Source: Muricauda sp. SCSIO 65647 (GTDB lineage: Bacteria; Bacteroidota; Bacteroidia; Flavobacteriales; Flavobacteriaceae). Taken from it: a stretch of 64,000 bases of DNA. The notes under the pieces were generated by a model. That model made no database searches. It was not told the origin of the DNA and saw only the letters and a list, made by a program, of their open reading frames with translations. Shown in pieces: positions 43,488-46,665 of the stretch. The stretch spans positions 1,838,501 through 1,902,500 of the forward strand of contig NZ_CP091037.1 in assembly GCF_021534965.1 (NCBI RefSeq), in the 5' to 3' direction. Position 1 is the stretch's first letter. Every line of letters starts with the position of its first letter. A program made the position numbers and the translations under genes.

Positions 43488-44096
43488 ATGGCTTTTGAAT
43501 TACCCAATTTGCCTTATGCCTATGATGCTTTGGAACCACATATCGATGCCCGTACTATGGAAATTCACCATACCAAGCACCATAATGGCTATACCACAAA
43601 ATTGAACGGAGCGATTAGTGGCACCGATCTTGAACACAAGACCATCGAAGATCTTTTGAAGAATTTAGATATGTCGAACGGCGCAGTTCGAAACAATGGC
43701 GGCGGTTATTACAACCACTGCCTTTTTTGGGAAATAATGTCACCCGATGGGGGAGGAAGCCCTTCGGGCGAGTTGGCCACTGCCATCGATGTTGCCTTTG
43801 GCTCGTTTGATGGGTTCAAAGATAAATTCAGTGCTGCGGCAGGAAGTCGATTTGGCTCAGGCTGGGCTTGGCTGTGCGTTCATAAAGGCGGAAAACTCGA
43901 GATTTGTTCGACCCCCAACCAAGATAACCCATTGATGCCCGAGATAGGCTGTGAAGGCCACCCAATTTTAGGATTGGATGTCTGGGAACATGCTTACTAT
44001 CTCAATTATCAGAACCGAAGGCCCGATTACATTTCAGCTTTTTTCAATGTTATCAACTGGGATGAGGTCGCAAAACGGTATGCAGGGAACAAATAG
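43488..44096 (+). CDS. Superoxide dismutase (Fe/Mn type)
   Basis: Converts superoxide to oxygen and hydrogen peroxide. A 202-residue family-typical protein starting [20 protein letters not shown]. Metal ligands are His in [14 protein letters not shown] (about residue 27), His in [10 protein letters not shown] (about 79), and Asp plus His in [20 protein letters not shown] (about 163). Whether iron or manganese is used cannot be decided from sequence by eye. It is monocistronic, with a promoter-like element upstream and a terminator at 44122-44151. The ATG at 43488 is preferred over an upstream in-frame ATG in an unconserved segment. Confidence 0.96.
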
Positions 44097-44121: not shown

Positions 44122-44151
44122 AAGGCGCGCCGAAACCGGTGCGCTTTTTTT
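44122..44151 (+). terminator. Rho-independent terminator of the superoxide dismutase gene
   Basis: GCGCGCCG (44125-44132), loop AAAC, CGGTGCGC (44137-44144) with one G-U pair, extended by AAG/CTT, then seven T. It lies 25 bp after the stop codon. Confidence 0.85.
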
Positions 44152-44180
44152 ATTGCGAATGGCTCAATAGCATAGAATAG

Positions 44181-44250
44181 AAAAGGGCGGGGAAGCCCCC
44201 ACCCTTTTCGTCCCAAATCTTACCATAAACTTAACCTACTTATGCTATGG
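44181..44250. repeat. Hairpin-plus-box element, copy 1
   Basis: The hairpin at 44181-44208 (GGGCGGGG and CCCCACCC arms with one C-A mismatch) is followed on the plus strand by the 39-bp box at 44212-44250. The box begins CCCAAATCTTACCAT and ends CTTATGCTATGG; this copy has ATAAAC where copies 2 and 3 have ATGAAC. The stretch 44097-44751 between sod and purF holds no convincing gene and is made up of three such copies, their spacers and the two flanking terminators. Confidence 0.85.
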
Positions 44251-44378
44251 CAATACTAAATTACTGGTATTGTGTAAAATAACAAAGAAAATTTAATGAT
44301 TTTTTTGAGCTTCCCGTAAGATTCTGACAGAAAATTCAATCGAAAAATTTGTTTAACGGCTTGAATTTCAAACATAAA

Positions 44379-44445
44379 GAAGGCGGAGCTAGCTCCGCCT
44401 TCTTTCCCCAAATCTTACCATGAACTTAACCTACTTATGCTATGG
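44379..44445. repeat. Hairpin-plus-box element, copy 2
   Basis: A perfect 12-bp stem, GAAGGCGGAGCT/AGCTCCGCCTTC (44379-44402), is followed by the box at 44406-44445. On the minus strand TACATTTG (44458-44451), a perfect Bacteroidota -7 match, lies a few bases before the box, so transcription leftward through the box into the hairpin is possible. Confidence 0.88.
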
Positions 44446-44593
44446 TTTTCCAAATGTATTTCAAGCCCTTATAACCGAAAAAGCTTTTAGACGAATGCCC
44501 CTTTAATCGGTTGAAATACCCGATTAAAACAAAGGGATTATAAAATATGAAGAAAAGGATTACGGATATTTTTAAAAGGAAGTGCCTGAATAT

Positions 44594-44664
44594 AAAAAAG
44601 GTGGAGAAGTCTCCACCTTTTTTGCCCCAAATCTTACCATGAACTTAACCTACTTATGCTATGG
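44594..44664. repeat. Hairpin-plus-box element, copy 3
   Basis: A perfect 14-bp stem, AAAAAAGGTGGAGA/TCTCCACCTTTTTT (44594-44623), is followed by the box at 44625-44664, identical to copy 2 over its length. The hairpin sequence differs from copy 2 while pairing is retained. Read leftward the element is box, hairpin, then a six-T run, the layout of a short terminated RNA. Confidence 0.88.
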
Positions 44665-44701
44665 CAAGCACTAATTTAACAGTCTGCTACTCCTAAGGGC
44701 T

Positions 44702-44722
44702 AAAAAGACGGTAAAACACCGT
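44702..44722 (-). terminator. Terminator of the purine operon
   Basis: On the minus strand ACGGT (44722-44718) and ACCGT (44712-44708) pair around a five-base loop and are followed by CTTTTT. It lies about 30 bp after the purF stop. Confidence 0.55.
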
Positions 44723-44751
44723 TTTCATCGATGAAAAGCATGCTTCTCTGG

Positions 44752-46665
44752 TTAAACGGTAATCTGTGAATAAGCACGCTGGTTTTTGCCTTCATAGAAA
44801 TTCACGAAAGCACGATTGACCACTTTGTTGCCCCCGGGGGTAGGGTAGTCACCGGTAAAGTACCAATCACCGAGATTCTTTGGGCAAGCGGCATGAAGGT
44901 TTTCGATGGTCTGATATATAATCTGTACTTCTGCCTGTACGTCTTTCGGACTTAGCATTGATGCTATCTTATCAGATATCTGTCCAGCGGTGAACGGGGC
45001 ATAGAAATCCTGCACATAATTGACGGGCTCAATTTTTGGAGATTTTACCTGCTCTTTACATTTGTAATAAATGTCATCCACAATATGCATCGTACCCTGC
45101 TCTTTGTGTAGGGCAAGTGCAGCCCTAAAGGCCACGAAATCTTCGAGCTTGGCCATGTCGATGCCATAGCAATCAGGATATCGAATCTGGGGAGCCGAAG
45201 AAACCACGATTATCTTTTTCGGATTCAATCTGTCCAACATCTTAAGAATACTCTTTTTCAATGTGGTGCCCCGAACAATACTATCATCAATAATAACGAG
45301 GTTGTCAGACTTTTTGACCGATCCGTAGGTGACATCATAAACGTGGGCAACCAAATCATCCCTACTGCTGTCTTGGGTGATAAACGTTCTGAGCTTGGCA
45401 TCTTTTATGGCCACTTTTTCGATTCTTGGCCGAATATCAAGAATTTTGTGCAGTTGCTCTTTGGTAATATCCTGGCCCAAGGCCAAAATCTGTTCTTCCT
45501 TTTTTTTGTTCAAATAGTTTTGTGCCTCTTTCACCATTCCGAAAAAGGAAGTTTCAGCCGTATTTGGAATATATGAGAACACGGTGTTCAACAAGTCGCC
45601 GTCAACCGCCTGCAATATTTGGGGAAACAATAACTGTCCCAATTTTTTACGCTCTCCATAGATTTCTTTGTCACTGCCCCTAGAGAAGTAAATACGCTCG
45701 AATGAACATGATTTTTTTTCTACGGGCCGAATGATTTCCCTGATGGATGTGGAGCCATTCTTTTTGATGATAACGGCGTGCCCTGGATCGAGTTCTTTTA
45801 CGCTTTCGTAGGGAACGTTGAAAACCGTTTGAATGGCAGGCCGTTCTGAAGCCACCACGACAATTTCGTCATCTTGATAGTGATAAGCTGGCCGAATGCC
45901 CGCCGGATCCCTCAACACAAAGGCATCGCCGTGGCCTAAAAGCCCAGCCATAGTGTAACCGCCATCCCAGTTTTTGGAAGACTTTTTCAATACTTTGGCC
46001 ACATTTAACCTTTTGGCGATCATCGGGGAAGCTTCTCGCTTGTTGAAACCTTCTTTTTTGATTTCTTTGTAAAGCTTTGCCACGGCATCGTCTAAAAAAT
46101 GACCGATTTTTTCCATAACCGTGACGGTGTCTACCATTTCTTTTGGGTGTTGCCCCAGTTCGACCAAATTTCCAAAGAGTTCATCCACATTGGTCATATT
46201 GAAATTACCGGCCACGATGAGGTTACGGTGCATCCAATTGTTCTGCCTTAAAAAAGGGTGTACACTTTCGATGCTGTTTTTGCCAAAGGTACCATACCGT
46301 ACGTGTCCCAAAAGTAGTTCGCCGATATAGGGAATGTTTTTTTTCTGCCAGGCCACATCAGAGGTTTTGTCAACGTTTTCAGAAATGACCGAATTGACCC
46401 TTGCATTGATTTGATCAAAAATATCTTGAATGGGCTGCGCTTCGGCCGATCGTACCCTGCTCATATATCGCTCACCAGGGGCCATGTTCAGTTTGATGCT
46501 GGCAAAACCGGCACCATCTTGGCCTCGGTTGTGCTGTTTTTCCATCATCAGGTACATCTTGTTGACACCGTAAAAAGCCGACCCGTATTTTTCTTGGTAA
46601 TATTCTAAGGGTTTTAGCAGCCGTATCAGCGAAATCCCGCATTCGTGCTTGATAGCATCACTCAT
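44752..46665 (-). CDS. purF: Amidophosphoribosyltransferase, long Bacteroidota form
   Basis: First committed step of purine synthesis: glutamine + PRPP to phosphoribosylamine. The N-terminal Ntn-type glutaminase has its nucleophile Cys after a short propeptide (MSDAIKHE then CGISLIRL) and the NRGQDGAGFAS motif (about residue 47). The phosphoribosyltransferase domain has the PRPP loop VIIDDSIVRGTTLKKS (about 450). At 637 residues it exceeds the classic 500, as in other Bacteroidota. It ends the leftward purN-rnhA-pfkB-purF run and begins 25 bp after pfkB. Confidence 0.93.
   Translation of the reverse strand: MSDAIKHECGISLIRLLKPLEYYQEKYGSAFYGVNKMYLMMEKQHNRGQDGAGFASIKLNMAPGERYMSRVRSAEAQPIQDIFDQINARVNSVISENVDKTSDVAWQKKNIPYIGELLLGHVRYGTFGKNSIESVHPFLRQNNWMHRNLIVAGNFNMTNVDELFGNLVELGQHPKEMVDTVTVMEKIGHFLDDAVAKLYKEIKKEGFNKREASPMIAKRLNVAKVLKKSSKNWDGGYTMAGLLGHGDAFVLRDPAGIRPAYHYQDDEIVVVASERPAIQTVFNVPYESVKELDPGHAVIIKKNGSTSIREIIRPVEKKSCSFERIYFSRGSDKEIYGERKKLGQLLFPQILQAVDGDLLNTVFSYIPNTAETSFFGMVKEAQNYLNKKKEEQILALGQDITKEQLHKILDIRPRIEKVAIKDAKLRTFITQDSSRDDLVAHVYDVTYGSVKKSDNLVIIDDSIVRGTTLKKSILKMLDRLNPKKIIVVSSAPQIRYPDCYGIDMAKLEDFVAFRAALALHKEQGTMHIVDDIYYKCKEQVKSPKIEPVNYVQDFYAPFTAGQISDKIASMLSPKDVQAEVQIIYQTIENLHAACPKNLGDWYFTGDYPTPGGNKVVNRAFVNFYEGKNQRAYSQITV

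Follow-up and report, generated by a model that had tools for sequence, protein, structure and literature searches.

A predicted family of multicopy small RNAs encoded in tandem between sod and purF in Flavobacteriaceae

Tandem units between sod and purF

The window, a 64,000-nucleotide stretch of the Muricauda sp. SCSIO 65647 genome, contains three 73-nt repeat units (44181–44253, 44376–44448, and 44595–44667) located between two syntenic genes. On one side, an Fe/Mn superoxide dismutase gene (sod, 43488–44096, plus strand; Pfam Sod_Fe_N and Sod_Fe_C) is convergent with the array, and on the other, a purF-like gene encoding 637 amino acids (44752–46665, minus strand; weak match to Pfam GATase_6) lies upstream of it in the same orientation. 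Each unit contains a 39-nt box (44212–44250, 44407–44445, and 44626–44664), in which the sole difference among the three copies is A or G at one position (CATAAAC vs CATGAAC). A hairpin adjoins each box, and its sequence varies by copy while its pairing is retained, with the arms of copies 2 and 3 matching perfectly (15/15 and 14/14) and copy 1 showing the form GAAAAGGGcGGGG/CCCCaCCCTTTTC. The preliminary description had recognised this three-copy box of approximately 39 bp with one substitution, together with the adjacent hairpins of differing sequence and preserved pairing, and both elements proved to be real; what it missed was the strand and the order, as every unit reads promoter, box, and terminator on the minus strand, with the box before the hairpin. 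Directly after sod, at 44126–44153, a GC-rich inverted repeat followed by a T-run constitutes an ordinary terminator convergent with the array.

All features of the three copies lie on the minus strand, and the functional unit extends beyond the box and hairpin to include the promoters. Copy A, nearest to purF, spans 44594–44665 (101 bits with the covariance model), with its predicted 5′ end at the purine adjoining CCATAGC and its predicted 3′ end in the T-run. Its conserved 5′ segment, identified by sequence comparison and consisting of the 5′ hairpin and the linker, occupies 44626–44664, and is followed by the bidirectional intrinsic terminator AAAAAAGGTGGAGA/TCTCCACCTTTTTT (44594–44623, inverted repeat I2) and preceded by a promoter region (44665–44724) with an imperfect −7-like box, TAAATTAG, at 44671–44678. 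The middle copy, B (44376–44446; 94.3 bits), has its conserved segment at 44407–44445 (repeat comparison), its terminator at 44376–44405 (inverted repeat I1), and its promoter region at 44446–44505, where a perfect −7 box, TACATTTG, at 44451–44458 is accompanied by the class-B upstream motif TTcgTCTAAAA. In copy C, nearest to sod (44180–44251; 92.7 bits), the TTTATGG variant of the conserved segment lies at 44212–44250 (repeat comparison), the terminator at 44180–44209 (fold and covariation), and the promoter region at 44251–44310, with an imperfect −7-like box, TAATTTAG, at 44256–44263 and the class-C element AATACCAGTAAT.

The RNA predicted from each copy is approximately 72 nt long and comprises a 5′ hairpin (CCAUAGC/GUUcAUGG with the loop GUAGG), the linker UAAGAUUUGGGG, and then the variable intrinsic terminator; the covariance model R1, based on a length-matched sequence subset, has two helices. 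Immediately 5′ of CCATAGC, at position −1, a purine is present in 98–100% of homologues, depending on the class. Farther upstream, TA at −13/−12 with TT at −9/−8 occurs in 98% of class B and class C copies, 84% of class D copies, and 58% of class A copies. These upstream boxes, like that of copy B, agree with the −7 box of F. psychrophilum, TAnnTTTG, located at −12 to −5 of the start site (PMC9723704). Such a box is present in most homologous copies, and those of copies A and C here are imperfect. Nearly all class C copies (77 of 82) share AATACCAGTAWT in a fixed place that falls between the −33 and the −7 region, and a TTnnTCTAAA motif lies around −50 in 73 of 122 class B copies and in many class D copies. 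Judging from these signals, each copy has its own promoter and intrinsic terminator, and transcription probably starts at the purine beside CCATAGC and ends at the terminator, which fits the tandem small-RNA array that was among the guesses of the preliminary description. Because the copies share their 5′ part while their promoter regions differ by array position, different signals probably feed one RNA, and the promoter classes may respond to distinct regulators.

Distribution and conservation of the family

The three-copy pattern goes well past what chance would give: in the 3.81-Mb Muricauda genome, the box pattern did not recur when up to three mismatches were allowed, and the covariance model found three copies only (101, 94, and 93 bits), with the remaining hits, at approximately 31 bits or less, being terminator-like or on the opposite strand. 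Of 60 relatives searched with blastn, 27 carry the element, and every one of these belongs to Flavobacteriaceae; when R1 was run over 296 genomes of the order, matches of >60 bits occurred only in this family (f1), throughout which homologues are found. Matches outside the family scored approximately 45 bits or less and on inspection were unrelated terminators. As far as sampled, the sRNA family is thus confined to Flavobacteriaceae. At least 117 loci were found in named genomes, including Zobellia, Maribacter, Muricauda, Robiginitalea, Aquimarina, Kordia, and Arenibacter, and a species-rich Flavobacterium-like genus carries arrays of up to five copies in the R1 scan. Among the matches listed, the array is flanked by sod and/or purF in most named loci, and the sRNAs are in the purF orientation wherever purF was found. 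Tandem copy number ranges from 1 to 6 across homologues, with a median spacing of 207 nt, and the paralogues follow the order A-B(n)-C, in which A is first, one to several B copies follow, and C is last (ABC, 25; ABBC, 17; ABBBC, 5 among the matches listed).

Of 354 distinct copies collected from homologous loci, 213 agree fully over their first 40 nt, and the 5′ forms next in frequency depart from this sequence at one or two bases or through a single TAAG/TAG indel, which bears out the earlier suggestion of selection on the box sequence. In an alignment of 120 distinct copies, standard pairing holds for 98.8% of the paired cells, and the single-strand fold z-scores range from −2.5 to −4.5. 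In the terminator, 12 of 13 pairs have double changes, a result reached by none of 500 shuffles, so that structural covariation proves this element. According to the preliminary description, a box found only here would have argued for a recent local duplication without function; the homologue search instead turned up members in many Flavobacteriaceae. When all 56 sequences were aligned with MAFFT, RNAalifold recovered helix 1 only, because MAFFT misaligned the terminators. In the 5′ helix, the variation among the 120 aligned copies is mostly one-sided, from G-U to A-U, and double compensatory changes were seen in neither alignment A1 nor A2 and in one cell of A3; this predicted hairpin is plausible, not proven. 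The ability of the box ends CCAT and ATGG to pair, pointed out earlier, was confirmed as a weak pairing. Because the stem that covaries forms the 3′ end of the RNA and is an intrinsic terminator of the usual kind, its covariation indicates the end of transcription and not a separate structured module; the earlier claim of selection on the pairing of this stem was right. It is the 5′ hairpin plus the linker that makes up the conserved working part, and there nearly all changes affect one side only.

Predicted targets among PorP/SprF-type mRNAs

RNA-level control in Flavobacteriaceae is, to our knowledge, almost unexplored. Complementarity to the sRNA was assessed in 434 translation-initiation regions (TIRs) of the Muricauda genome, drawn from 20 evenly spaced 20-kb stretches, the window, and the SusC loci, and together covering approximately 12% of the genome. 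Across these TIRs, duplexfold energies reflected long-loop artefacts and could not be told apart from those of shuffles, and a single-segment complementarity scan was near shuffles and not clearly significant. A two-segment ranking placed a PorP/SprF-family gene first, with a value reached by approximately 9 of 60 shuffles, and the background of 433 TIRs was mildly enriched (12 vs 6.1 expected; 36 of 1000 shuffles). Among PorP/SprF TIRs from sRNA-bearing genomes, 8 of 41, the lead gene of the ranking included, contain a perfect complement of at least 9 nt (0.75 expected; 0 of 1000 shuffles, which, like our other shuffle controls, ignore phylogenetic relatedness), and none of the 18 PorP/SprF TIRs from genomes without the sRNA does. 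A second PorP set from seven other sRNA-bearing genomes, the only one drawn beforehand, gave 7 of 59 (1.21 expected; 4 of 2000 shuffles), a smaller effect that is partly carried by the same sprF orthologue.

The signal came largely from a single orthologue, the PorP gene that immediately follows an ORF ending in GHFTLYR. In the Muricauda genome, this ORF is an SprB-repeat adhesin with a type-B CTD, followed by PorP_SprF, and by these sequence features the two genes are the sprB–sprF pair. SprF anchors SprB and aids its secretion in F. johnsoniae (PMC9143113). Perfect complements of 9–12 nt were found in 9 of 13 sprF orthologues from sRNA-bearing genomes (0.34 expected), a count that none of 5000 shuffles reached (shuffle maximum, 5), with p-values that are optimistic because these orthologues were selected with the signal already in view; 7 of 11 remained when the own genus was left out. 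The predicted sites, such as AACTTAACCTA, CCCAAATCTTA, and AACTTAACCTAC, lie either before the start codon or at +13 to +23, depending on the species, and the part of the sRNA used also varies, which argues for selection on pairing. Meanwhile, the 17 Flavobacterium-like sprF TIRs, from genomes that do encode the sRNA, contain no 9-nt complement, and none of the sprF TIRs of the sRNA-bearing genomes G008, G009, G235, G115, G172, G197, G310, and G315 reached 9 nt. The target is thus restricted to one clade, and because this leaves the family-wide invariance of the 5′ part unexplained, there must be further targets or a protein that binds the RNA.

Further complementary sites were seen elsewhere. 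At a distance of 18–33 nt upstream of sprF, the Flavobacterium-like genus has a conserved ATGATGTTAT that often follows GCCCC. It shares 7 nt of complementarity with CCATAACATTAG, a lineage-specific form of the sRNA, and is possibly a lineage-specific pairing site, though too short to judge. In the start region of a second PorP/SprF-family gene (G000:C1:618296), three segments are complementary to the box (CCAAATCTTA, AACTTAACC, and ACCATGAA), and a minus-strand gene for a 234-amino-acid signal-peptide protein, with CCCAAATCTT at −15 to −6 before its ATG, is a candidate further target. SusC was rejected as the main target, as a complement of at least 8 nt in 4 of 16 susC TIRs of the Muricauda genome (1.27 expected; 37 of 1000 shuffles) is only marginal.

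The three minus-strand genes would, on our preferred reading, encode a trans-acting sRNA of approximately 72 nt, with the position-specific promoters (A, B, and C) feeding different signals into one common RNA. This RNA would pair via its loop/3′ arm (GUAGGUUAAGUU) and/or its linker (UAAGAUUUGGG) with the TIRs of mRNAs for PorP/SprF-type outer-membrane proteins of the type IX secretion system (T9SS), chiefly that of sprF behind the SprB gliding adhesin, and would most likely block their translation. We assign this explanation as a whole a probability of approximately 0.6. Its parts differ in strength: the sequence comparisons make an sRNA gene family almost certain and a base-pairing mode of action probable, sprF/PorP mRNAs are rather likely to be real targets in the A-B-C clade, and the odds of repression as against activation appear about even. 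In the literature searched, we found no report of sRNA control of gliding motility or of the type IX secretion machinery.

Relation to known sRNAs and alternative explanations

The preliminary description recognised no described family, and the Rfam search agreed, yielding no match at the gathering score for the element and only a tRNA in the window; the weak Rfam matches share mainly the terminator, except for FopS (BTncRNA_FopS, RF04319). FopS, an sRNA of Bacteroides, represses outer-membrane protein mRNAs by pairing with the start codon region, and it has in common with the Flavobacteriaceae sRNA that it is a multicopy paralogous RNA of approximately 70 nt in which an invariant 5′ part of approximately 40 nt follows a TAnnTTTG promoter and precedes a variable intrinsic terminator (PMC11697453). 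Its start-codon pairing is also the mode proposed here, and the best reading is that the two RNAs act in a similar manner. They differ in that FopS copies are dispersed, whereas the Flavobacteriaceae sRNA forms one syntenic tandem; in that a 5′ hairpin is predicted in the latter; in that the Muricauda genome lacks a homologue of RbpB, the RRM_1 partner protein of FopS; and in that complementarity to SusC start regions, with which FopS pairs, is only marginal for the Flavobacteriaceae sRNA. The FopS model scored the element at 22.4 bits vs a gathering score of 56 and had no match in Flavobacteriaceae genomes; a local core shared with FopS, UUCAUGGUA(uu)AGAUUU, was equalled by 55 of 3000 shuffles; and global alignments to real FopS or FopS-like members from other families gave p values of 0.03–0.21. 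Membership in FopS was therefore rejected as unproven, the alignments being not convincingly above chance.

The model search also showed FopS above the gathering score in several family-level groups of the class, with up to 12 matches per genome (G782, G639, G764, G463, G614, G586, G557, G529, G499, G745, G725, and G684), so that its spread may exceed the Bacteroidaceae described in PMC11697453. The FopS-like sequence nearest to the box, TTTTTCATAGGATAAGGTTTAAGG (p approximately 0.03), comes from a weak 36-bit match (G411:C18:28835–28913) and may reflect a link or chance.

More distant parallels exist in other phyla. The Qrr, LhrC, csRNA, and OmrA/B groups also consist of near-identical paralogues with separate promoters, for which dosage or signal integration is assumed, and we know of no sequence relation between them and the Flavobacteriaceae sRNA. 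All four are named as multicopy sRNA groups in PMC11697453. The family described here is very likely real, as a new sRNA family of this known kind, the multicopy trans-acting sRNA, and support for its mechanism and target is moderate.

Among the alternatives, the most serious is that the conserved 5′ part serves chiefly to bind a protein, whether as its titrator or as the ligand of a chaperone, with the sprF complementarity being incidental or secondary. Near-invariance of 40 nt across the family would indeed be unusual for a pairing seed whose best target is restricted to one clade. However, the complementarity to sprF TIRs lies far above shuffles, its sites occupy differing positions by species and are absent in genomes without the sRNA, and the Muricauda genome yielded no Hfq and no RRM_1 match (a control genome was positive for the latter), leaving no known candidate ligand; we consider protein binding as the main role unlikely, while giving it some weight. 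The RNA might instead be one already detected in Flavobacterium and unlinked until now, either an Rfp transcript of F. psychrophilum or an unnamed candidate of F. columnare. Like the Flavobacteriaceae sRNA, Rfp18 and other Rfp RNAs are conserved across species and have envelope or secreted-protein targets: Rfp18 controls metalloprotease mRNA levels and has predicted protease and adhesin targets, and conservation of Rfp RNAs beyond F. psychrophilum is reported (PMC9723704). F. columnare candidate RNAs without Rfam matches have also been reported (PMC5395568), and the family is present in the large Flavobacterium-like genus. Rfp18, however, is described as pairing by its third stem-loop, whereas R1 has two helices and the predicted RNA two hairpins, and the median Rfp transcript length is 176 bp vs approximately 72 here (PMC9723704). 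The box sequence had no occurrence in the main texts of the literature searched, and such an identity seems to us quite improbable.

Two readings that dispense with a regulatory RNA fare worse. The hairpins have A-runs and T-runs able to terminate both strands, and the array lies between convergent sod and purF, as would suit a bidirectional terminator module or a REP/MITE-like repeat without an RNA product of its own. Such a module would have no need of an invariant box, and promoter boxes stand at fixed spacing upstream of the boxes, with class-specific promoters, at a single syntenic location and not dispersed, making this reading very doubtful. As for a small ORF starting from the ATG within the invariant box (MVRFGAKKVE...), lineages differ there by one base (TAAG or TAG), which changes the frame (MVRFGAKK vs MVDLGQKK) and rules out a conserved ORF; what follows downstream is variable terminator, so that we give this reading almost no credence.

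The preferred reading of a multicopy trans-acting sRNA provides an unannotated, nameable sRNA family across much of Flavobacteriaceae, with a covariance model and a fixed locus, and a testable target within the machinery for gliding motility and type IX secretion. A broader picture, which we offer only tentatively, is that a fixed array with one invariant RNA and several position-specific promoters sets SprF/PorP translation, and that a deep origin or a convergent design is shared with FopS. If true, gliding and surface-adhesin display would be under direct RNA control, and start-codon pairing of outer-membrane protein mRNAs would be a general strategy of Bacteroidota.
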